A DNA stretch of 64,000 bases from an uncultured Clostridia bacterium (lineage in GTDB: Bacteria > Bacillota > Peptococcia > Peptococcales > Peptococcaceae). The stretch covers positions 1-64,000 of the forward strand of contig CALXSY010000002.1 of assembly GCA_944391285.1 (NCBI GenBank), in the 5' to 3' direction. How positions within the stretch are numbered: position 1 is the stretch's first letter; every line of letters starts with the position of its first letter. This document shows, piece after piece, positions 3,633 to 63,536 of this stretch. The position numbers and the translations under genes are program-made. The notes beneath the pieces are model-generated. The model did no database searches and had not been told where the DNA came from. It worked only from the letters and a program-made list of their open reading frames with translations.

Positions 3633-4325
3633 ATGGAAAAAACAAGGGCTGAAATCAGAGAAAAATTGTTTGCTTTAAGTGAAGAAAAATATGCAGATTT
3701 TACTGCCAAGCTGACACCAACCATTCCCCGGGAGCGGGTAATCGGCGTAAGACTGCCGGTTATGCGCAAATTAGCCAAGGAATTGGCTAAAGATGAGCAA
3801 AGTCTGGCATTTTTAGAGGATTTGCCCCATTTTTATTTGGAGGAAAATACTCTGCACGGGCTTATGATCGGGCAAATAAAAGATTTTGCGCAGGTTATGG
3901 AATATACGGAAAAATTTTTGCCCTATGTGGATAATTGGGCAACGTGCGATACCTTTGCTCCGAAAATTTTTAAGAAACATCAGGCAGAAGTGTTGGTATA
4001 TATTCAAAGATGGCTCCAAAGCGACCATCCTTACACCGTGCGTTTTGCGGTGGTGACTTTGATGAGCAATTACTTGGATGAGTATTTTGAGGAAAAAATG
4101 CTGGATTGGCTGGTTAAATTAAAATGGGAAGATTACTATGTCAAGATGGCCATCGCCTGGTATTTCAGTACGGCGTTAGTCAAACAGTATGAGATAACTA
4201 TTAAGGTTTTGGAAGAAAAGCGCTTAGAAAAATGGGTGCACAATAAGTCTATTCAGAAGGCTTTGGAAAGTTACCGCATAGATGAGGAAAAAAAGGCATA
4301 TTTAAGGACACTGAAAATAAAATAG
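3633..4325 (+). CDS. AlkD-like DNA alkylation repair protein
   Basis: The 230-residue all-helical protein belongs to the DNA alkylation repair (AlkD/AlkC, HEAT-like repeat) family. Members are DNA glycosylases that remove bulky or positively charged alkylpurines without base flipping. Family features seen are the N-terminal RVIGVRLPVMRKLAKEL block, the central helix with DNWATCDTF, and a Trp/Tyr-rich stretch (KLKWEDYYVKMAIAWY) that would line the DNA-binding groove. It starts 5 nt after argS, and a strong terminator follows, so the two genes look like one transcript. The enzymatic activity is inferred from family only. Confidence 0.88.
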   Translation: MEKTRAEIREKLFALSEEKYADFTAKLTPTIPRERVIGVRLPVMRKLAKELAKDEQSLAFLEDLPHFYLEENTLHGLMIGQIKDFAQVMEYTEKFLPYVDNWATCDTFAPKIFKKHQAEVLVYIQRWLQSDHPYTVRFAVVTLMSNYLDEYFEEKMLDWLVKLKWEDYYVKMAIAWYFSTALVKQYEITIKVLEEKRLEKWVHNKSIQKALESYRIDEEKKAYLRTLKIK

Positions 4326-4513: not shown

Positions 4514-7500
4514 ATGCAGGCAAAACGCTGGATTATCAATGCGTGCGATGAAAAACAAAGAGATATGCTGAGTCAAGAATTAGGAATATCGCCCTATATC
4601 GCCGAAATATTGATCAAGCGGGGAATAAGCACCTATCAGCAGGGGGTGGACTTTTTAAATCCCAAGCTGCAAAATCTCTCGCACCCGATGGAAATATTAA
4701 ATATGGCAGCGGCAGCGGAAAAAATCTGGCAAAGCATCGATAAAAAAGAGAAGATCACCGTTTACGGGGACTATGATGTGGACGGAATGTGTGCCGGCGC
4801 TATTTTATATGAAGGATTAAAGGATTTGGGAGCCGATGCCGAATGCTATGTGCCCGACAGAATCGAAGAAGGCTACGGCTTAAATCAAAAGGCTGTAGAA
4901 ACTATTGCTCAAAAGGGCAGCAAGCTTTTGGTAACGGTTGATTGCGGCATTTCCTCGGCTAAGGAAGTGGCGGCGGCGCAAAAGCTGGGCTTGGAAGTGG
5001 TAGTGACTGACCATCACCAACTGCCGGAAATTTTGCCTAAGTGTATTATTGTCAATCCGGCTTTGCAGGCGCAAAAAGGAGCGAAATGGGGCAGTTTATG
5101 CGGAGCAGGAGTTGCATTTAAGCTGGTGCAGGCGCTGTGGAAATGGAAGTTTGGCGCTAAAGAGGTTTGGCAGAAAACCTTTAAACTTTTGGATTTGGTA
5201 GCTTTGGCAACTATTGCCGATATTGTGCCGTTAAAAGGTGACAATCGGATTTTGGTGAAATTCGGTTTAGAGGTTATGCAAGGAGGCAAGCGGGTCGGCT
5301 TAAAGGAATTAGCTAAAGTGGCTGCCGGTAGTTATCAGGTGGAAGCAACTCCGATGTTTGCCAGCTTTGGCTTAGCACCCAGACTCAATGCCTGCGGACG
5401 TATTGGTGATGTAAAGAACGGTTTAGAGCTGCTTTTGACCAAGGATCAGAATAAGGCTTGGGCGATTGCCAAAAGACTGGATGATGAAAATCGGGACCGG
5501 CAGAATATTGAAAGGCAGATTTATGAGGAAGTGCTGGAGATTATCGCTCAAAATGAGCTTGATACCCACCGCGGGATAGTGGTTTTTGGAGAAAATTGGC
5601 ATCCCGGAGTTATCGGCATAGTAGCTTCCCGTATTGCAGAAAAATTTTATACACCGGCGATTATTTTCACCCGAATTAATGATACTTACAAAGGCTCGGG
5701 CAGAAGCATCGAGGGATTTCATTTGCAGCAGGCTTTGAGCAAATGCGCCGATATTTTGGAGAATTTCGGCGGGCATGCTCAAGCGGCAGGTTTAAGCATT
5801 AAGAAAGAAAACATGGCGGAATTTATCAAGCGTTTGGGCGATTTGATTGCCCAGAGCGATGAGCAGATTTTCCTGCCAAAGGTTAAAATTGATTGTGTGC
5901 TGAGTAAAGAAAGCGTGAATTTCAGTTTTTATAATGAGGTAAACAAATTGCAGCCCTTTGGCATGCAAAATCCGGCACCAATTTTTGTGCTCAGAGGCTT
6001 AAAAGCCAGTGAATGCCGGGAAGTAGGCACCAACGGCGACCATTTAAAGGCGAGATTTATCTCTTATAAAGGCGATTTAAACGCCATTGGCTTTAAAAAG
6101 GCTTATTTGGCAGAGATAGTCGGCAAAGACAAGGTTGATGTAGCCTTTAATCTGGAAAAAAATAATTTTAACGGTCATACTACCTTGCAGCTTAATATTT
6201 GCGATATTAAACCGCAGAAACGCAGCGATGAGCTCAGTATGCTGGATAAACTTTTTTTCTACAGTGAGGAATATTTAAAGGATGATCCTTATAAGCATTT
6301 AGCTGAAAAAAATGAGTTTTACACCAAAGTAGTGGGCGTGACCTTTGAGAATCGCCAAAGTCTGTTAAGCGATTTGAGCGAAGGACAGGAACTGGAGCTT
6401 AAAAGAGAAAAAGAAAATGAATATGACAGCAACGCTGTGGCTGTTTATGCTCAAGAAAAACATTTGGGTTATATAAAACGGGAGATAGCCCGGCATTTAG
6501 CCATGAATATGGACAGCGGCATCAGTTATAAAGCCATGGTCAGCCAGCTGACCGGTGCGGATAAAGAAATATTGGGAGTGAATATTTTTATCCGCCGTGT
6601 GCCGGAGGCTGTGGCTGTTGATGAGCAGGAAAATCTCAAACAAAGGGAGCAGCTGGAAAAATTGGCTCCGGAGGCTATCCGTTTGGAGATTCAAAGGGTG
6701 CTCTTGGGTTCGCATGATTACCGCCCCAAGCAAAAAGAAGCTTTGGAAGCTTTGGAAAAGGGCGAAAATGTTTTTGTAATCATGGGCACCGGCAGAGGAA
6801 AATCGGCTGTTTTTCAAAGCTACGGCGCTTATTTGGCATTAAAGGAAAGAAAGCGGACAGTGATCATCTATCCTTTGCGGGCGCTGGTCAATGACCAATA
6901 CTTGCGCTTAAAGGATAAAATGGCGCTTTTAGGTATAGATGTAGTTAAAGCTACCGGAGAAATGAATGCCGAGGAGCGAAGTGAGTTTTTCCATAAGCTG
7001 AGTGAGGAAGGTGCCGATATTATTTTAACTACACCGGAATTTTTCTATTGTAACCGCAGCCGGCTTTTGGAGAAAACCAATATTAGCTTTATGGTTTTGG
7101 ACGAAGCCCATCATTTGACCCAAAGACGCAATGGCTACCGGCAGCTGTTAAAATTTTTAGGCGGCTTCAAAGGGCAGATTTTGGCTTTAACGGCTACGGC
7201 TGCCGACGATGTTTGGCAGAAAATCAAAGAAAATGTGTCTTTTGACACTTTGGTGATTGATAAACACATCCGCGAGAATCTTATTTTAGATGATAAACGG
7301 GGAATTAAGGAAAAAATAGCCTGGCTGGCAGAATTAGCGGCTGGCGGAGAAAAAACCATTGTTTATGTCAACAGCCGCCGCAAGGCGGTGGAGATCGCGC
7401 AAAGTCTCCGGGAGCGTTTGCAAAACGAAGACTTGAAAAAGCAGATTTGCTATTATCATGGCGGCTTAGAAACTCGTGACAGAAAAATGATTGAAAACAG

Positions 7501-8131
7501 CTTCCGCGACGGCAAGCTTAAATTTATCGTTTCGACCAGCGCTTTTGGCGAAGGCATTGACATAAGCGACATAAGGCATGTTGTTTTGTATCATTTGAGC
7601 TTCTCCTGCGAAGAATATAATCAATTAGCCGGCAGAGCAGGAAGAGACGGCGAGAAAGCGTATATTCATCTTTTGTATAACGAAAAGGACAAACGGGTCA
7701 ATGAACTGCTTTTAATGGAAAGCTGTCCTCAAAGAGAAGTTTTAGCCGGTTTTTATAAAACTCTGCGAACCGTAGCTCGTCAAGGGGAAATTAAAATGAC
7801 CAATGAAGAGCTGGCACAGAGCACGAAAAATGTCAGGGGCTTAAGCGAAAGAGCGGTGAGCCATTGGCTGGGGATTTTTGAAGAACTGGGCTTTTTGGCG
7901 CGGGAGCTTAATGGCAGCAAACGCACGATCATCGTTAATGAGCGTCCCAATAGGTCTAATTTGGAGGACTCATTAAGATATGCCGAAGGCTTAGCTGAGC
8001 TGGAGGATTACGAAGAGTATGTGACGCTGGCTTTTAATCCCCGGGCAGAGGAATTATTAGAAGCTATAAATCGTCCTATTTACCCGAAAAATTGGCAAAA
8101 CACACAAGGCGGTGAGAAATATGAGATTTAA
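4514..8131 (+). CDS. recJ: RecJ exonuclease fused to HIRAN and RecQ-like helicase domains
   Basis: RecJ is a 5'-3' single-strand DNA exonuclease of recombination and repair. Bacterial RecJ usually has 550-800 residues, but this product has 1205. Residues 1-560 are RecJ: DYDVDG (86-91), the DHH motif near 166, and a DHHA1 half with GSGRSIEGFH and GGHAQAAG. Residues about 600-695 look like a HIRAN domain. Residues about 725-1080 form a superfamily 2 helicase of RecQ type: Walker A GTGRGKS near 757, DEAH near 862, TATAA, FGEGIDI and QLAGRAGRDG near 1035. A winged-helix-like tail follows. The reading frame is unbroken, so this is a true fusion that may couple unwinding to resection. The start follows GAGGGGGTGAG. 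The stop overlaps rel by 11 nt. Confidence 0.9.
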   Translation: MQAKRWIINACDEKQRDMLSQELGISPYIAEILIKRGISTYQQGVDFLNPKLQNLSHPMEILNMAAAAEKIWQSIDKKEKITVYGDYDVDGMCAGAILYEGLKDLGADAECYVPDRIEEGYGLNQKAVETIAQKGSKLLVTVDCGISSAKEVAAAQKLGLEVVVTDHHQLPEILPKCIIVNPALQAQKGAKWGSLCGAGVAFKLVQALWKWKFGAKEVWQKTFKLLDLVALATIADIVPLKGDNRILVKFGLEVMQGGKRVGLKELAKVAAGSYQVEATPMFASFGLAPRLNACGRIGDVKNGLELLLTKDQNKAWAIAKRLDDENRDRQNIERQIYEEVLEIIAQNELDTHRGIVVFGENWHPGVIGIVASRIAEKFYTPAIIFTRINDTYKGSGRSIEGFHLQQALSKCADILENFGGHAQAAGLSIKKENMAEFIKRLGDLIAQSDEQIFLPKVKIDCVLSKESVNFSFYNEVNKLQPFGMQNPAPIFVLRGLKASECREVGTNGDHLKARFISYKGDLNAIGFKKAYLAEIVGKDKVDVAFNLEKNNFNGHTTLQLNICDIKPQKRSDELSMLDKLFFYSEEYLKDDPYKHLAEKNEFYTKVVGVTFENRQSLLSDLSEGQELELKREKENEYDSNAVAVYAQEKHLGYIKREIARHLAMNMDSGISYKAMVSQLTGADKEILGVNIFIRRVPEAVAVDEQENLKQREQLEKLAPEAIRLEIQRVLLGSHDYRPKQKEALEALEKGENVFVIMGTGRGKSAVFQSYGAYLALKERKRTVIIYPLRALVNDQYLRLKDKMALLGIDVVKATGEMNAEERSEFFHKLSEEGADIILTTPEFFYCNRSRLLEKTNISFMVLDEAHHLTQRRNGYRQLLKFLGGFKGQILALTATAADDVWQKIKENVSFDTLVIDKHIRENLILDDKRGIKEKIAWLAELAAGGEKTIVYVNSRRKAVEIAQSLRERLQNEDLKKQICYYHGGLETRDRKMIENSFRDGKLKFIVSTSAFGEGIDISDIRHVVLYHLSFSCEEYNQLAGRAGRDGEKAYIHLLYNEKDKRVNELLLMESCPQREVLAGFYKTLRTVARQGEIKMTNEELAQSTKNVRGLSERAVSHWLGIFEELGFLARELNGSKRTIIVNERPNRSNLEDSLRYAEGLAELEDYEEYVTLAFNPRAEELLEAINRPIYPKNWQNTQGGEKYEI

Positions 8132-10301
8132 AGATTTGTTGGATGTTGTATATGAAAATAATCCCGAGGCAGATTTGTGTACTTTAGAAGAAGTCTATCG
8201 TTTTGCAGAGGATTTGCATAAAGGACAGTACCGCAAATCCGGTGAGCCTTATATTAATCATCCTTTGCATGTAGCGATGATTTTAGCAGAGTTGGGTTTA
8301 GATGAGCAAGCAGTGGCGGCAGGGCTTTTGCATGACATAGCGGAAGACACCAACTGCACTTTAGATGGCTTGATTGATCATTTTGGTTCGGAAATATCCT
8401 TTTTGGTCAATGGTGTAACTAAGCTGAGCAAACTGGAATGCACCAATAAAGAGGAGCGTCAGCTGGAAAGCTACCGCAAGATGTTTTTGTCGATGGCGAA
8501 GGATATTCGCGTTATTTTAATCAAGCTGGCTGACAGACTGCATAATATGCGTACTTTAAAATATCAACCGCCGGAAAAACAACGGGAGATTGCTCAAGAA
8601 ACTTTGGAAATTTACACTCCTATCGCTAACCGCTTAGGTATTTCCCGCTTGCAATGGGAATTGGAAGACCTATGTCTGCGCTATCTGGAGCCGGATCGTT
8701 ATTATGAATTAGTTAACAGCATCTCTATGAAGCGTCAGGAGCGGGAAGAATATATCAATGAGGTTATCGATATTTTGACCAAAGAATTGGCCAAAGAAAA
8801 TATCAAGATGGAGATAGTAGGCAGACCGAAGCATTTTTACAGCATTTATAAAAAAATGGTGCGGCAGCATAAGGATTTGAATGAAATTTACGATTTGATC
8901 GCAGTCAGGATTTTGGTAGACAGCATCAAGGATTGCTACGGAGCTTTGGGGGTAGTGCATGCTTTGTGGAAGCCTATTCCCGGGAGATTTAAAGATTATA
9001 TCGCCGTGCCTAAAGCCAATGGCTATCAGTCGCTGCATACGACTGTTATCGGTCCCCGCGGCGAGAGATTTGAAATTCAGATTCGCACCTATGAAATGCA
9101 TATGACAGCCGAATACGGTGTAGCGGCGCACTGGTTATATAAAGAAAGCGGGCATTCGAAAGGAGCAGACAATTCCGGACAGCTCAGCTGGATTAAGCAA
9201 TTGCAGGAGATTCAGCAGGAAAGCAGTGACAATAAGGAATTTGTCGAATCCATTAAGATGGATCTCTTTTCCGATACGGTTTTTGTTTTCTCGCCCAAGG
9301 GAGATGTCTACGAACTGCCGGTAGGCTCGACACCTATTGACTTTGCTTACAAGGTGCATACCAATGTCGGCAACCGTTGTATAGGCTGCAAGATCAATAA
9401 CCGCATTGTGCCGTTGGATTATCAGCTGCAAAACGGCGAGATTGTGGAAATATTGACTTCCAAGCAGATCAACGGTCCCGGGCAGAACTGGCTCAGTATC
9501 GCCAAAACTTCCATGGCGAAAAACAAAATCAAGCAATGGTACAAAAAAGACCGCCGGGAAGAAAATATTATTAAAGGCAAAGAGAGCTTAGAGCGGGAAT
9601 TAAAGAAACATAATATTGACAGCAGCAACTATATTAAAGGCGACGGACTCAACCAGGTAGCAGCAAAAATCGGCTATCACAATAAAGATGAAATATTTAT
9701 TGCCATCGGAGGCGGCTCTTTAAGCCCGGTGCAGGTAATCAATAAGCTTAAAGATGAGCTGCATACTGCCGATAAACAGCCGGAAAACCTGGAGGAGATG
9801 CTCAACAGCAAGAGCAATCGGGAAGTAAAAAACAAAAACCGCAAAAAAAGCAGCAGCGGTGTCGTTATTAACGGGTTGGAAGGTGTCAGCGTGCGCTTTG
9901 CCCATTGCTGCAAGCCGGTGCCGGGCGATCCTATAGTCGGCTTTGTCACCCGCGGCAGAGGGGTTACAGTTCACCATACAGCCTGTCCGAACTTAAGCAA
10001 TCTTTCGGAGGAAGAAAAGTCCAGGCTTTTATATGCTTATTGGGAGAATTACGAGGAAGAGGTATTTCAGGTTAAGCTGCATATCACTGGCTTAGACAGA
10101 CCGAAGATTACCGCTGATGTTATGACTTTGGTCAATGACACCAAGGTGCATATTACTTCCATCAATGCGGTCAGCCGCAATTTCCACGTCAATATTGAAA
10201 TGAGTTTGGAAGTAGCTAATTTGGATCAGCTCAATGTTTTGATTGACAAGATCCGCAGTATTAAAGATGTAGAAGACGTGAAACGTTCTTTAGCAGAATG
10301 A
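8121..10301 (+). CDS. rel: Bifunctional (p)ppGpp synthetase/hydrolase
   Basis: The 726-residue long-form RelA/SpoT homologue makes and degrades the stringent-response alarmone. In order it has an HD hydrolase domain (LLHDIAEDT near residue 70 and LADRLHNMRTL), a synthetase domain (NGYQSLHTT, EIQIRT), a TGS domain about 385-445 and a C-terminal ACT domain. The loop GRFKDY carries the RxKD signature of bifunctional enzymes, not the acidic form of synthetase-only RelA. I take the ATG at 8121 over an in-frame GTG at 8112, because the GTG lies inside the ribosome site AAGGCGGTGAG. It overlaps the recJ fusion by 11 nt and is followed by dtd. Confidence 0.96.
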   Translation: MRFKDLLDVVYENNPEADLCTLEEVYRFAEDLHKGQYRKSGEPYINHPLHVAMILAELGLDEQAVAAGLLHDIAEDTNCTLDGLIDHFGSEISFLVNGVTKLSKLECTNKEERQLESYRKMFLSMAKDIRVILIKLADRLHNMRTLKYQPPEKQREIAQETLEIYTPIANRLGISRLQWELEDLCLRYLEPDRYYELVNSISMKRQEREEYINEVIDILTKELAKENIKMEIVGRPKHFYSIYKKMVRQHKDLNEIYDLIAVRILVDSIKDCYGALGVVHALWKPIPGRFKDYIAVPKANGYQSLHTTVIGPRGERFEIQIRTYEMHMTAEYGVAAHWLYKESGHSKGADNSGQLSWIKQLQEIQQESSDNKEFVESIKMDLFSDTVFVFSPKGDVYELPVGSTPIDFAYKVHTNVGNRCIGCKINNRIVPLDYQLQNGEIVEILTSKQINGPGQNWLSIAKTSMAKNKIKQWYKKDRREENIIKGKESLERELKKHNIDSSNYIKGDGLNQVAAKIGYHNKDEIFIAIGGGSLSPVQVINKLKDELHTADKQPENLEEMLNSKSNREVKNKNRKKSSSGVVINGLEGVSVRFAHCCKPVPGDPIVGFVTRGRGVTVHHTACPNLSNLSEEEKSRLLYAYWENYEEEVFQVKLHITGLDRPKITADVMTLVNDTKVHITSINAVSRNFHVNIEMSLEVANLDQLNVLIDKIRSIKDVEDVKRSLAE

Positions 10302-20100: not shown

Positions 20101-20150
20101 TAATATTGTAAAGAATAAATTATTTTCATAATAATAAAGGAGTGAATTTT

Positions 20151-22133
20151 ATGGGAGAACCAAACAAAGTAATTGTTTTAGGGATTGATGGTCTGGATCC
20201 GGGACTGGTCAATCGTTTTCGGGCTGAAGGAAAAATGCCCAATATGGATGCTTACATTAAAAGAGGCAGCACAGCCAAGGATCTGGTAATGCTGGGAGGA
20301 GTTCCGACTATTACGCCGCCGATGTGGACAACATTGGCTACCGGTGCTACACCGGCTACCCATGGTATTACCTGTTTTTGGGGTCAATCAAAGGACGAAA
20401 TGGACGGATTTGTTTACAATTTAAATTCCCATCGCTGCAAAGCGGAACTGTTGTGGAATGTTACCGCAGAGCAAGGTATAAAAACCTTAGTTTTCCATTG
20501 GCCGGGCAGTTCATGGCCTCCGACTTCAGATAATGCTAATTTGCATGTCGTTGACGGAACACAGCCTACATCCATTGGTACCGGTGACTGTATAGTCGAT
20601 GATGACAAACTGATTATTGCTTCTACTCAGGTAAAAGACTTAGTATATAAACCAAAAGTACGGGATACTTCCGGTGCCGGCTGCATTATTACGGATGTGC
20701 CGGAAGAGACAGAAGATTTTGACAGTGATATGGGCTCGTCGAAGAAAGCTAACCTTATTCTAAATGAACATGACGGCGATTTGGGTGCTGATATGATTCC
20801 GGTGGACTTGGTTAATTCACCTATAGTTGAGCCGAAAAAATGGGAAATAGATATCCCAAATGGTGCTAAGGAATTCAGCATAGTTATCGATAATGGTTTA
20901 ATGCGTTATCCTGCTTTAATTTTGTGCGATAAAGATGGGAAATATACGCAGGTAGCTATTTACCGCAATAAAAAGAGCGCAGAGCCTTTAGCTGTTTTAG
21001 GCGATGAATTTGTAGAAAATGTTGTTGATGAAATAATTAAGGATGATAAGCCAATAAAAGCTAATAGACACATGCGTTTAATTGAAATTGCTGAGGACGG
21101 GAGTTTTGTTAAACTTTGGTTTAGTTCGGCTTTAGACATAGCCAAAGATGATCTATGGCATCCTAAACATTTAAAAAGAGAGGTTATTGTTAATGTAGGA
21201 CCGGTTCCTCCGGTTTCGATGAGCGATGCCAGCAACGAATCTTTGGTAAAATCCGTTCTTTTGCCTTGCTGGGATATATATTGCAAATGGCAGGCTGATG
21301 CGATGCAGGAATTAATTGCTCAGGAAAACTATCAGGTAGTATTTTCTCATTTGCATGGAGTTGATACTTGCGGTCATTTATTCTGGTATTTGAGCAAGAA
21401 GCGCTCTAAGAGAGGCAATAACGAAAAAGTATACCAGGATGCAATTGAATGGGCTTATAAATTTACTGATATGTATGTAGGAGAGTTTTTGCATTACTTA
21501 GATGAAGGCTGGAATATATTGATTGTTTCCGACCATGGCTTGTTAGTTCCGCCGGAAGAAGATATTCCGTTATTAGGTGACGGCTTTGGCTGCAATGTTC
21601 GTCTAATGGAGAAATTAGGCTATACAGTGCTGAAGCAAGATGAAAAAGGCAATACTGTTATTGATTACAGCAAAACTAGAGCAGTTGCCAACCGGGGAAA
21701 TCATATTTATATCAATCTGAAAGGTCGTTATCCGGATGGTATTGTTGACCCGGCAGATAAATATGAATTAGAAGCTCAAATTATCAGCGATTTGTACAAC
21801 TACCGCCAAGACGGCAAACGGGTTGTTTCTATCGCTTTGCGTAACAAAGATGCAGCAATTTTGGGTTTGACCGGCGAAGAGTGCGGCGATATTCTTTATT
21901 GGCTGGAGGAAGGATACAACAGACTGCACGGTGATTCTTTGCCAACATTTAAAGGTGAGTATCAGAGCTCCGTTTCTCCGATATTTATCGCTGCCGGCAA
22001 GAACATTAAAGAAGATTACACGACCACACGGACAATTCGTATCGCTGATGTGGCTCCGACAGTGGCTACTATTTTAGGAGTACCGATGCCGAAGGATTGT
22101 GAAGGAGCACCAATTTATCAGATTTTACAATAG
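20151..22133 (+). CDS. Alkaline-phosphatase-superfamily hydrolase, module A
   Basis: The 660-residue protein is of the type I phosphodiesterase/nucleotide pyrophosphatase kind. All seven catalytic positions can be assigned: Asp13 (GIDG), candidate nucleophile Thr55 (TITPPMWT), the D-x3-H pair in HGVDTCGH, the DH pair in SDHG, and the late His of RGNHIY. There is no CxPxR motif, so it is not a formylglycine sulfatase. No signal peptide precedes the first core strand, so it should act in the cytosol. The middle (about 150-370) is a large insertion I do not recognise. The ATG at 20151 after AAGGAGTG is chosen over a GTG nine bases upstream. The substrate is unknown, and a phosphate ester, phosphodiester or phosphonate are all possible. 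It is paralogous to 39594-41618. Confidence 0.88.
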   Translation: MGEPNKVIVLGIDGLDPGLVNRFRAEGKMPNMDAYIKRGSTAKDLVMLGGVPTITPPMWTTLATGATPATHGITCFWGQSKDEMDGFVYNLNSHRCKAELLWNVTAEQGIKTLVFHWPGSSWPPTSDNANLHVVDGTQPTSIGTGDCIVDDDKLIIASTQVKDLVYKPKVRDTSGAGCIITDVPEETEDFDSDMGSSKKANLILNEHDGDLGADMIPVDLVNSPIVEPKKWEIDIPNGAKEFSIVIDNGLMRYPALILCDKDGKYTQVAIYRNKKSAEPLAVLGDEFVENVVDEIIKDDKPIKANRHMRLIEIAEDGSFVKLWFSSALDIAKDDLWHPKHLKREVIVNVGPVPPVSMSDASNESLVKSVLLPCWDIYCKWQADAMQELIAQENYQVVFSHLHGVDTCGHLFWYLSKKRSKRGNNEKVYQDAIEWAYKFTDMYVGEFLHYLDEGWNILIVSDHGLLVPPEEDIPLLGDGFGCNVRLMEKLGYTVLKQDEKGNTVIDYSKTRAVANRGNHIYINLKGRYPDGIVDPADKYELEAQIISDLYNYRQDGKRVVSIALRNKDAAILGLTGEECGDILYWLEEGYNRLHGDSLPTFKGEYQSSVSPIFIAAGKNIKEDYTTTRTIRIADVAPTVATILGVPMPKDCEGAPIYQILQ

Positions 22134-39593: not shown

Positions 39594-41618
39594 ATGTTAA
39601 AAAGAACTGCCTTAACAAACAAAATACTCTTATTAGGTTGTGATGGGATGGATCCGCGCCTAACTAAAAAATATGTAGATATGGGACTGATGCCTAATGT
39701 CAAGAAATATATTGAGCGTGGAGCAGCAAGAGAAGACTTAATGATGCTGGGCGGACATCCAACAGTTACTCCGCCAATGTGGACTACCTTAGCCTGTGGC
39801 TGCTATGCTAATGTTCATGGTATAACCGGATATTATCGCATGGGAAATGACATCGATCAGATAGATTATAATTTTGATTCTCGTGATTGCAAAGCTGAGC
39901 CTTTGTGGAATGCCTTTGCTGAAGCAGGCAAAAAAACTCTTGTTTGGCATTGGCCCGGATCTTCTTGGCCGCCAACCAGTGATAATCCTAATTTGCTGGT
40001 AGTTGACGGCACTTCTCCCGGTTCGGTCGGCATGGCTACCTCGCAGGTAGAAGGGGAGTTTTTAGTTGGAGCCTCTGAATTGATAAAAGAATTGGTTTAT
40101 ATACCTAAAGCTCCGATGGAGGCAAGCGCTGCTTGTGTCGTGAATGATTTGAATTTGGAAAAAAGAGAAACTGCTAGAATGTTAAGTATCGTTGGCAAGG
40201 TAAAAGATGATGATACTAAGCGGAAAATGATAACTGGTTGGGATAAACATACAACTTCCACTACAGAAGCCTTGGTAGATATGATTCAATCACCGATTAA
40301 AGAAGCAACAGGCTGGGCAAATGCACCGGCAGGGGCTAAGGAATTTGCTATTTTATTTTCTGCCGGCTTGATTCGCCGTCCGGCTTTAATTTTAAAAAAC
40401 GAAGAAGGCATTTACGATAAAGTAGCTATTTATAAAAGCAAGAAATCGGAAACGCCCTTGGCTGTTTGCCCCATAGGCAAAATGGTGGTTGAAGTAAAGG
40501 ATGAAGCTATTCGCGGAGATAAAACCTATAAGGTTAACAGAAATATGAAGCTATTGAAACTGGACCCGGAAGGAAAAACTTTAACCATGTATATTTCCGG
40601 TGCGATGGATATGGAAAATGACAGCTGCTATCATCCAAAAAGTTTATTTAAAGAAATTACGGAAAATGCAGGTTATCCCACCCCGACATCTATACTTGGC
40701 AGACAGGATCCTATGCTGATAACAGATTGCATGTTGGACAACTGGTATGCTACGGCAGACTGGCAGGCAAGAGCAATGCATTATGTTATTGAGCATGAAA
40801 ATATTGATGTTGTTTTTTCTCATTATCACGCTATTGATTTGGAGGAACATCAATTTATTAAACACATGTCGGAACATGAATTTAACCGCAATCCTGTTGA
40901 AGTAGCGCAAAAATGGATGCAGGATCTCTATGTGCAGACGGATTACTATTTAGGAAAATTTTTACACTATCTTGATGAAGGCTGGACTGTTATAATTATG
41001 TCAGACCATGCTCAGGTTTCTCCAAAACATGATTTATCTCTTTTGATGCCGCTGACAGGAGTAGCTACCACTGTTTTTGAACAAATGGGCTTCACCAAAA
41101 GTTATGTTGATGAAAATGGCAAGACTCGTATTGACTGGACTCAAACTAAAGCGGTGTGCCAGCGCGAAGGTCACGTATATATTAATCTTAAAGGCAAATA
41201 CGATCATGGCATAGTTGATCCCGCAGATCAATACGAACTTGAGGAAGAAATTATAACAAAATTGTACCAACTGACAGATGAAAAAACCGGACACAGAATC
41301 GTTTCGGTAGCTTTGCGCAACAGAGATGCCGTCTTACTCGGACAAGGTGGACCGGAAGCAGGCGATATTATTTTCTGGATGGCAGAAGGGTACAACTATG
41401 ATCATGCCGATTGTTTATCTACGACACAAGGTGAAAGTGATACTTCTATTTCTCCGATATTTATCGCAGCAGGTCAAGGAATTAAGAGTGGATTCACTAC
41501 TGACAGGATAATCAGGCAGATCGATTTTGCGCCAACCGTTGCTGTTTTGGGCGGTGTACGCATGCCGGCAAACTGCGAAGGTGCTCCTGTTTATCAAATT
41601 TTAACTGAAGAATTCTAA
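39594..41618 (+). CDS. Alkaline-phosphatase-superfamily hydrolase, module B
   Basis: The 674-residue paralog of the module A enzyme has long shared blocks (TPPMWTTLA, WHWPGSSWPPTSDNPNL, GRYPDGIVDPADxYELE-like). The catalytic set is complete: Asp17 (GCDG), candidate nucleophile Thr59 (TVTPPMWT), D-x3-H in HAIDLEEH, SDHA, and the late His of EGHVYI. No signal peptide is seen, so it should be cytosolic. Differences cluster in the middle insertion (about 165-385), which may set substrate choice. The start follows TGGAGGG at good spacing. The substrate is not known. Confidence 0.88.
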   Translation: MLKRTALTNKILLLGCDGMDPRLTKKYVDMGLMPNVKKYIERGAAREDLMMLGGHPTVTPPMWTTLACGCYANVHGITGYYRMGNDIDQIDYNFDSRDCKAEPLWNAFAEAGKKTLVWHWPGSSWPPTSDNPNLLVVDGTSPGSVGMATSQVEGEFLVGASELIKELVYIPKAPMEASAACVVNDLNLEKRETARMLSIVGKVKDDDTKRKMITGWDKHTTSTTEALVDMIQSPIKEATGWANAPAGAKEFAILFSAGLIRRPALILKNEEGIYDKVAIYKSKKSETPLAVCPIGKMVVEVKDEAIRGDKTYKVNRNMKLLKLDPEGKTLTMYISGAMDMENDSCYHPKSLFKEITENAGYPTPTSILGRQDPMLITDCMLDNWYATADWQARAMHYVIEHENIDVVFSHYHAIDLEEHQFIKHMSEHEFNRNPVEVAQKWMQDLYVQTDYYLGKFLHYLDEGWTVIIMSDHAQVSPKHDLSLLMPLTGVATTVFEQMGFTKSYVDENGKTRIDWTQTKAVCQREGHVYINLKGKYDHGIVDPADQYELEEEIITKLYQLTDEKTGHRIVSVALRNRDAVLLGQGGPEAGDIIFWMAEGYNYDHADCLSTTQGESDTSISPIFIAAGQGIKSGFTTDRIIRQIDFAPTVAVLGGVRMPANCEGAPVYQILTEEF

Positions 41619-61037: not shown

Positions 61038-63536
61038 TTAGGCAGTAACGATTTTGGCTGCTTTTTGCAAGCCCAATTTTTCTACCGCCTGTTCGCGCAT
61101 TTTGTATTTCAAGATTTTGCCGGCATCGTTCATGGGGAAACTGTCCACAAATTCAATATAGCGAGGTACTTTGTGTTTAGCCATATTAGCCAGGCAGAAA
61201 TCTCTCAATTCATTCTCAGTCATGGTTTCGCCTTTCTTTAAGATAACGCAAGCCATGACTTCCTCACCGGCTGATTCATCAGGCACACCGATAACTTGAA
61301 CATCTTGAACTTTGGGATTGGTGTAGATGAATTCCTCGATTTCCTTAGGATAAATATTTTCACCGCCGCGGATGATCATATCTTTCAAGCGGCCGGTGAT
61401 GCGGAAATTGCCTTCCGGTGTGCGGCAAGCCAAATCACCGGTATGCAGCCAGCCGTCTTTATCGATGGCAGAAGCAGTAGCTTTCGGCATTTTGTAGTAG
61501 CCTTTCATGATATTGTAGCCGCGGGCGACAAACTCGCCAATGACTTCATCGGGGCAGTCTTCACCGGTTTCGGGGTTGATGATTTTGCACTCGATTTCCG
61601 GCAGAGGACCACCGACGGTGCCTACACGAACCTCTAAAGAATCATCAACACTGCTCATAGTGCAGCCCGGGGAAGCTTCTGTTTGACCGAAAACGATGGT
61701 GATGTCTGTCATGTGCATTTTTTCTACAACCTCACGCATAACGGCGATAGGGCAAGGGCTGCCTGCCATAATACCGGTACGCATATGGGAAAAGTCCGTT
61801 TTGGGGAAATCCTTATGCTGCAAAAGGGCGATAAACATAGTCGGAACGCCGTGGAAGCAGGTGATTTTCTCCATATTGATACAAGCCAATGCCGGACGCG
61901 GTGAGAAGTACGGCAAGGGATAAATGCTGGCGCCATGGGTCATAGCTGCGGTCATGGACAAAACCATGCCGAAGCAGTGGAACATCGGCACTTGAATCAT
62001 CATGCGCTCGGCGGTGGATAAATCCATGCGGTCGCCGATGCATTTGCCGTTGTTAACGATATTGTGATGGGTCAGCATTACGCCTTTGGGGAAACCGGTA
62101 GTGCCGGAGGTATATTGCATGTTGCAGACATCATTGACATCAACCTGAGCTGCCATATGCAGGATTTCCTCTTGGGAAACTTGATTAGCCCGCTCAATAA
62201 ACTCATTCCATTCCAAAGCGCCGGGCATTTCAAAGCCTACAGTGATAACATTGCGCAAGAAAGGAAGGCGTTTGGCATGCAAACTGTGACCTTTTTTGGT
62301 CTGAGCCAACTCAGGGCAGAGCTCTTTGATGATTTCTTTATAATTGGAGTCTTTAAAGCCGTCAATCAAAATAACAGTGTGGGTATCGGATTGCCGCAGG
62401 AGGTATTCTGCTTCGTGAATTTTGTACGCAGTATTCATGGAAACAAACACAGCGCCGATTTTAGTGGTTGCCCAAAAGGCGATGTACCACTGGGGAATAT
62501 TGGTTGCCCAGACAGCTACATGGGTGCCGGCTTTAACACCGACTGCGACCAAGGCACGCGCCATTTCGTCCACATCATCTCTGAATTGGCTGTAAGTACG
62601 GGTATAATCCAAGGTAGTATATTTAAAGGCAATCTGGTCGGGGAATTCTTCAACCATGCGGTCCAACACTTGGGAGAAGGTTTGCTCAATGATGCTCTCT
62701 TTTTCCCAGATGAAATTACCGGTATGGGCTTTGTTGGAATAAAGGTGTTTCTTGCGCTTGGAAGGATTGTCGTACTGCTTCATTTTGTTGCTGACATAGG
62801 TGAGAATGATTTCTAAATCATCCAAGCCTTCGGGCCAAGCAGGATTCCAGACGGTAGTGATGAAGCCGTCATAGTTAATGGATTTCAGAGCGTTCATCAT
62901 ATCTACCAAGGGCAGATTTCCTTCGCCCAAAAGGGTGAAATTGCCTTTGCTGTCGCAGTCCATCAAATGCACTAATTTAACATAAGCGCCTAAGTTTTGA
63001 ATAGTTTTTTCGCTCTCTTCACCCTGTAAAAAAGTAGCGTGCATTTGCCAGTCAGAGGCGACATAATCGCTGGCCATAGTGTTGAGCAAATCTCTCAAAA
63101 GAGAGGTATCGGCAAAAATACCGGTAGTTTCAATCAAGATTACTATTTTTGCTTCGCCGGCAGCAGTGACAGCTTTTTCTAAAAAGCTGACAGCAGCGGC
63201 AAAATCCTCCGCACTGCCTTCTGCTCTGACGGTGATATAAGGAATATTGGCTCCTTTAGCAGTTTGGGCGGCTGCTTTAAAGGCAGCTATATTGGCTTCC
63301 TCATTTTCTTTGGAAGCGATGTTGATGTCCATACTCAAGGAGGAGAGAGTTAAATCCATGTCTTTCAGCTGGCGTTTGCTTTTGCCGACTAAATCATTTT
63401 GCAAAGGATTCATGCGTCCGCTGAATGCCTTGCTTGCCAAATCTATTTCGATACCGCCAAAGGCAGTATTTTTAGCCATATTTAAAAAGTTGTCCCAGGA
63501 ATAATCCCAGTGTTTGGTGGAAAATGCTAAATTCAT
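61038..63536 (-). CDS. Sugar-isomerase-like TIM barrel fused to acyl-CoA synthetase
   Basis: The 832-residue fusion has residues about 1-265 that resemble the xylose-isomerase-like TIM barrel family (sugar phosphate isomerase/epimerase), with GGIEIDLASKAF, LIETTGIF and the late LGEGNLPL. Residues about 280-832 form an AMP-dependent acyl-CoA synthetase: YTSGTTGFPKG near 474, GQTEASPGC, TGDLACRTPEGNFRITGRLKDMIIRGGENIYP and the catalytic Lys in DAGKILKYKMR. The closest kin of the ligase half are medium-chain/aryl acid ligases. The start overlaps the leuA-type stop (ATGA) with GAGGAGG in front. The fusion suggests a pathway making and activating a branched or hydroxy acid. Substrate unknown. Confidence 0.88.
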   Translation of the reverse strand: MNLAFSTKHWDYSWDNFLNMAKNTAFGGIEIDLASKAFSGRMNPLQNDLVGKSKRQLKDMDLTLSSLSMDINIASKENEEANIAAFKAAAQTAKGANIPYITVRAEGSAEDFAAAVSFLEKAVTAAGEAKIVILIETTGIFADTSLLRDLLNTMASDYVASDWQMHATFLQGEESEKTIQNLGAYVKLVHLMDCDSKGNFTLLGEGNLPLVDMMNALKSINYDGFITTVWNPAWPEGLDDLEIILTYVSNKMKQYDNPSKRKKHLYSNKAHTGNFIWEKESIIEQTFSQVLDRMVEEFPDQIAFKYTTLDYTRTYSQFRDDVDEMARALVAVGVKAGTHVAVWATNIPQWYIAFWATTKIGAVFVSMNTAYKIHEAEYLLRQSDTHTVILIDGFKDSNYKEIIKELCPELAQTKKGHSLHAKRLPFLRNVITVGFEMPGALEWNEFIERANQVSQEEILHMAAQVDVNDVCNMQYTSGTTGFPKGVMLTHHNIVNNGKCIGDRMDLSTAERMMIQVPMFHCFGMVLSMTAAMTHGASIYPLPYFSPRPALACINMEKITCFHGVPTMFIALLQHKDFPKTDFSHMRTGIMAGSPCPIAVMREVVEKMHMTDITIVFGQTEASPGCTMSSVDDSLEVRVGTVGGPLPEIECKIINPETGEDCPDEVIGEFVARGYNIMKGYYKMPKATASAIDKDGWLHTGDLACRTPEGNFRITGRLKDMIIRGGENIYPKEIEEFIYTNPKVQDVQVIGVPDESAGEEVMACVILKKGETMTENELRDFCLANMAKHKVPRYIEFVDSFPMNDAGKILKYKMREQAVEKLGLQKAAKIVTA

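Follow-up and report, generated by a model that had tools for sequence, protein, structure and literature searches.

The fusion gene lies at positions 4514-8131 of the forward strand in the window, which is the whole analysed stretch of 64,000 nucleotides, and its open reading frame starts with ATG, runs for 1205 codons with no internal stop and translates into a protein of 1205 residues, identified as a recJ-HIRAN-helicase fusion by the frame itself and by Pfam and TIGRFAM evidence. The gene order around it is argS, an AlkD-like gene, the recJ fusion, relA, dtd, a metallo-hydrolase gene, a radical SAM gene, hisS and aspS. The relA/spoT gene (8112-10301, forward strand) overlaps the recJ stop by 20 bases, in a conserved recJ-relA neighbourhood. 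This housekeeping neighbourhood and the overlap into relA place the fusion gene on an ordinary chromosome and not on a mobile element, so that it is a housekeeping chromosomal recJ beside relA. A phage or mobile origin was rejected because of the same neighbourhood and because phage records match the helicase part only, and that partially, the best at about 32% identity and none covering 80% of the query. The source genome encodes a single copy of RecJ in the genome search, which is the fusion, and it also encodes AddA; a search of it for standalone RecQ returned nothing besides the fusion and one DEAD-box protein.

Directly upstream of the fusion gene is a gene for a DNA_alkylation (AlkD-like) repair protein of 230 residues (3633-4325, forward strand), which has no NCBIfam match and may form a repair gene cluster with the adjoining fusion gene. 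Other genes of the window also drew attention. The reverse strand at 61041-63536 encodes an 832-residue protein with an unusual pairing of an AP_endonuc_2/xylose-isomerase-like TIM barrel and an AMP-binding enzyme of the acyl-CoA synthetase type. Two phosphodiesterase-superfamily proteins of 663 and 674 residues are encoded on the forward strand at 20142-22133 and 39594-41618 and are possible paralogues.

The first 565 residues of the chain are RecJ, with 545.8 bits to the recJ model TIGR00644 (cut-off 396.9). This part has a DHH nuclease domain at residues 80-233 (4751-5212; this and all following features of the chain are on the forward strand), in which YGDYDVDG, TVDCGI and TDHH are intact, a DHHA1 domain at residues 355-446 (5576-5851), which has GSGRSI and GGHAQAAG, and a RecJ_OB domain at residues 459-564 (5888-6205; 96.8 bits). 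The RecJ catalytic motifs DYDVDG, TDHH and GGH are therefore all present in the fusion. A HIRAN domain follows at residues 601-681 (6314-6556; 3.6e-15), and then a helicase formed by RecA1, which matches DEAD at residues 737-899 (6722-7210; 1.7e-27) and has TGRGKS at 6788-6805, DEAH at 7100-7111 and TAT, and by RecA2, which matches Helicase_C at residues 934-1046 (7313-7651; 3.8e-29) and has motif V and the motif VI sequence GRAGRD at 7631-7648. DHH, DHHA1, RecJ_OB, HIRAN, DEAD and Helicase_C each score above their own Pfam cut-off. The chain ends with a winged helix at residues 1066-1164 (7709-8005), which matches PF10141, the ssDNA-exonuc_C domain of Bacillus-type RecJ, at a borderline score of 24.0 bits in one search and 27.2 in another against a gathering cut-off of 26.4.

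An earlier note, made from the sequence alone, had described this locus as one unbroken RecJ-HIRAN-helicase frame, and the stop-free frame, the Pfam domains and the TIGR00644 score bear that description out; its HIRAN assignment is confirmed by the profile search (56 bits, cut-off 24.7). The note had also raised the case of two genes joined by a frameshift or an assembly error, whose probability is negligible, as dozens of named contigs, each sequenced independently, have the same single frame and the architecture of about 1200 residues persists in relatives down to 37% identity. The note does not mention the C-terminal PF10141 match, the ordinary chromosomal setting of this recJ, the presence of AddA or the repeated decay of the helicase part in related bacteria.

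The helicase has a complete set of motifs, motif 0 and motifs I-VI, represented by YRPKQ, TGRGKS, DEAH, TAT and GRAGRD. In an alignment of 21 fused homologues, the residues T759, G760, R761, G762, K763, D863, E864, H866, T893, A894, T895, R1041 and R1044 are invariant. The best-scoring family models of the motor are those of RecQ, and AlphaFold2 models of residues 567-1205 (pLDDT 89.9) and 912-1205 (pLDDT 91.8) both gave RecQ-family proteins as all 50 of the PDB matches listed in a fold search. The motor scores below both RecQ cut-offs, with 179.4 bits to the family model TIGR00614 (cut-off 219.8) and 178.8 bits to the equivalog TIGR01389 (cut-off 640.2), and no RecQ zinc-binding, RQC or HRDC domain was matched by Pfam in the fusion at E<=1. 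In the tree, the fused helicases and two standalone relatives stand apart from 19 RecQ-type helicases with a support of 100, the trees being quick and unrooted, with weak support at many forks. Thus the earlier proposal of a RecQ-like SF2 helicase stands for the motifs and for the nearest relatives by profile and fold, but the motor is not RecQ itself and belongs to a sister clade; a plain fusion with RecQ was ruled out by the cut-offs and the tree.

RecQ search matches were also found inside two very long frames of other genomes, of 1638 residues (L246, genome G021) and 1609 residues (L247, G035). The first of these, read by eye, looks like a single chain that combines a DnaQ-type exonuclease, RecQ and a UvrD-type helicase, in this order.

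The HIRAN domain of human HLTF binds 3' single-strand ends, and HLTF HIRAN domains are the best solved relatives of the domain in the fusion (5e-11), which is the only HIRAN over the cut-off in the source genome. The HLTF pocket for two nucleotides of single-stranded DNA is bordered by Y72 and Y93 (PMC4666394). In a comparison of this pocket (Y72, N90/N91, Y93), in which the Y72 region is unaligned, the window protein keeps NxYD; N and D are invariant, and Y is replaced by H, F or E in some members. Several fusions with an intact helicase have no HIRAN (L025-L029, L120 and the Collinsella loci L077, L078, L087, L093, L105, L112 and L119), which means that the domain is dispensable in fusions and that end recognition by HIRAN, which the earlier note had placed between nuclease and motor, cannot be central to the mechanism.

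The layout recurs well outside the source genome, and the fusion is a housekeeping form of RecJ with a wide distribution. All 40 relatives searched match the query, and in about two dozen of them the fusion is complete or almost complete in length, with identities of 37-54%. A pattern scan of genome contigs gave 80 named loci in Peptococcaceae, in many Coriobacteriia (Collinsella, Olsenella, Atopobiaceae), in Negativicutes (Anaerospora, Massilibacillus), in Orenia and in Thermincola, and the helicase is joined to RecJ in nearly all of those whose contig extends far enough upstream, survey loci having been partly chosen because they match. Surveys that sampled genomes evenly gave matches at E<=1e-60 in 36 of 399 from the window's phylum, a few of these being RecQ-type or partial, and matches in 25 of 199 from the phylum of Collinsella, 21 of them with frames of fused length.

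A dead RecJ half in Coriobacteriia was considered for 46 fused proteins flagged by a pattern search and was rejected, as the alignment shows a conservative GDFDxDG and intact DHH and GGH. Loci of Coriobacteriales (L077, L087, L092, L093, L096, L119 and others) have TVSDMM in place of TIADIVPL at RecJ motif IV, with GDFDxDG as motif I, and keep the acidic residues. In an Eremiobacterota assembly (G480), a standalone HIRAN-helicase lies directly after a secF-like frame (L127, 601-2622), and no RecJ was found in this metagenome bin; it may represent the reverse loss, with the helicase kept and RecJ gone, and is a lead only.

The fused helicases form one clade that diverged together with the RecJ half, which makes the architecture an old one as judged from these comparisons. 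Pairwise identities of the RecJ core and of the helicase are correlated over 43 genes (r=0.89; the highest value under permutation is 0.19), and a single fused clade with parallel divergence of both halves agrees with one original fusion that was then inherited by common descent. Separate fusions of RecJ with RecQ-family helicases, arising independently in different lineages, would agree with the patchy distribution across Firmicutes and Actinobacteria, but are very improbable given that the fused helicases group apart from all RecQs sampled and that the two halves diverge in parallel.

RecJ proteins of the same phylum appear to preserve a graded decay of the helicase, from full-length motif-dead forms, through forms without RecA1, to forms with an eroded RecA2 and a winged helix. 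Two fusions of 1091 (L182) and 1116 residues (L183) have a motif-dead helicase, and a third of 1188 residues (L184) keeps a weak HIRAN and both motor domains while it lacks Walker A, DExH, TAT and the arginine finger; the helicase of L205, the sister of L184 with a support of 100, is intact. In four genomes of the window's taxonomic order (G014, G018, G020 and G015; L021-L024), RecJ has 827-913 residues and is followed directly by RecA2 and the winged helix, RecA1 and HIRAN being gone, and GRAGRD of motif VI is broken to GWAQS, GWAGN, QKTCT and SFLAK. A link between helicase loss and standalone RecQ was sought and is not clear in these four, as RecQ is present in G015 and G020 and absent from G014 and G018. 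The genome G244 has the motif-dead fusion L182, a second RecJ and an intact HIRAN-helicase as a separate frame of 657 residues (L181), which makes it a natural test of a motor acting in trans.

A profile of the intact helicase found 70 of 85 RecJ tails at its first pass and 85 after one iteration, with just two very short tails left out, and reversed-tail decoys gave E values of at least 1.8. Among the 95 genomes of the phylum that match RecJ, the commonest class of frame is that of 740-1060 codons, which is the size range of the relics. The nuclease motifs are kept in all 135 dereplicated RecJ cores. On the RecJ tree, the intact or not intact status of the helicase changes 13 times in the simplest account, and at least five changes are forced by strongly supported branches; most of them are probably losses, since a return from relic to intact motor is implausible, and some may reflect horizontal transfer of recJ.

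The last stage of this series appears to be the PF10141 tail, which the control genomes of B. subtilis and Lactococcus both have, as do 59 of the 61 genomes searched in one order and the solved RecJ 8y30 (3.4e-17); this structure is not among the 50 PDB fold matches listed for the window models, all of which are of the RecQ family. Comparison of profiles gives strong evidence that the winged helix of the Bacilli tail is homologous to that of the fused helicase (hhalign, 98.1%, 7.6e-14, score 82 against a shuffled maximum of 18.6). The part of the Bacilli tail before the winged helix aligns with RecA2 at the right place, at a level that is not significant in the direct comparison (2.8%). Bridging profiles strongly indicate that this part is a relic of RecA2, as RecA2 matches the clostridial tails (98.9%, 3.5e-17) and these match the Bacilli part (82.8%, 9.4e-6, score 37.0 against a shuffled maximum of 10.5).

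The tail may instead have been acquired on its own, with the winged helix alone related to the fused helicase, which would be domain sharing and not decay. The winged helix is indeed the only part in which the Bacilli tail matches significantly by direct profile, but domain sharing is improbable in view of the collinear RecA2 remnants of the clostridial tails and their link to the Bacilli part, of the full-length motif-dead helicases L182-L184, and of the position of the tail, which always follows the RecJ OB domain directly. The best reading of the RecJ tails is that they are what remains of an ancient fusion of RecJ with a helicase. We hold with considerable confidence that nuclease and helicase were already fused in the ancestral RecJ shared by many Firmicutes, and possibly also by Coriobacteriia, that the motor was repeatedly lost, that PF10141 in the RecJ of B. 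subtilis, of the S. aureus type and of most clostridia is the relic, and that a surviving motor makes RecJ a self-sufficient resection enzyme.

RecJ degrades DNA in the 5'->3' direction. RecQ-type motors use the other strand as their track and follow it 3'->5', and with these polarities the fused motor would feed RecJ the strand that it degrades. The most economical mechanism is plausibly a one-chain resection enzyme, for which the protein families predict how the two activities are coupled, in which direction they run and how ends are recognised. The RecQ-like motor would load on single-stranded DNA, travel 3'->5' and unwind the duplex, and the displaced 5'-ended strand would be handed to the RecJ active site for 5'->3' degradation. 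HIRAN, where present, may aid docking on a 3' single-strand end or gap, and the winged helix may hold the duplex at the junction. In many related bacteria the motor would have been lost stepwise with the nuclease retained, and the leftover RecA2 and winged helix (PF10141) were probably kept as a module that binds DNA or partners.

As AddA is present, the fusion need not be the main enzyme of double-strand-break resection, and processing of gaps or forks by it is equally possible. The motor could also be a short-range remodeller, or a translocase that clears proteins, at gaps and stalled forks, where RecJ would trim the exposed 5' ends while AddAB resects double-strand breaks. This is unlikely, because the closest relatives of the motor by profile and fold are the unwinding helicases of the RecQ family, although AddA in the same genome, the similarity of HIRAN to that of HLTF, a fork remodeller (PMC4666394), and the lack of a Pfam match to RecQ zinc, RQC or HRDC domains in the fusion all speak for it. 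It is likely, on the whole, that the only RecJ of this cell is a nuclease with its own motor, coupled as proposed above, and that it derives from an old fusion whose motor was lost stepwise elsewhere, leaving PF10141 as its remnant.

The decay series would account for an unexplained domain in the RecJ of well-studied species and points to how this domain may bind DNA or partners, and it makes directly testable why a built-in motor is needed in some bacteria and not in others. The relic explanation of PF10141 would surprise a specialist and is checkable against a deposited structure. No description of the fusion or of the relic was found in the open-access literature searched, where RecJ with HIRAN, RecJ fusions and PF10141 returned nothing on topic, which is weak evidence of absence.

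RecJ is the standard nuclease of resection and repair, and in the textbook picture its unwinding is borrowed from RecQ. The fusion has the same pair of activities as the separate RecQ and RecJ of the RecF pathway, but joins them covalently in a genome without a separate RecQ, and since this partnership is in one gene across large bacterial groups, the coupling can be tested by point mutants in one protein. In comparison with RecQ helicases (E. coli RecQ, BLM, WRN, RECQL5), the fused motor shares motif 0, motifs I-VI and the best profile and fold matches, whereas it falls below the RecQ cut-offs, lacks the zinc, RQC and HRDC domains and the canonical W-G-H-D-F aromatic-rich loop, forms a separate clade and has a nuclease attached. 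The HIRAN domain resembles PF08797 and human HLTF in its profile score over the cut-off and in the invariant N and D of the NPYD signature, and differs in its place, between a nuclease and a RecQ-like motor instead of before a SNF2 motor, and in its loss in some lineages. The PF10141 domain of B. subtilis, Lactococcus and Staphylococcus-type RecJ shares a homologous winged helix with the fusion, in the same place after OB, while RecA1 is gone, the ATPase motifs are absent and RecA2 appears eroded. RecJ itself (TIGR00644; solved relatives 8y30, 5f54 and 2zxo) has the whole DHH-DHHA1-OB core, all catalytic motifs and the recJ-relA neighbourhood in common with the fusion, which differs from it by about 640 extra residues that form HIRAN, a two-domain SF2 motor and a winged helix.
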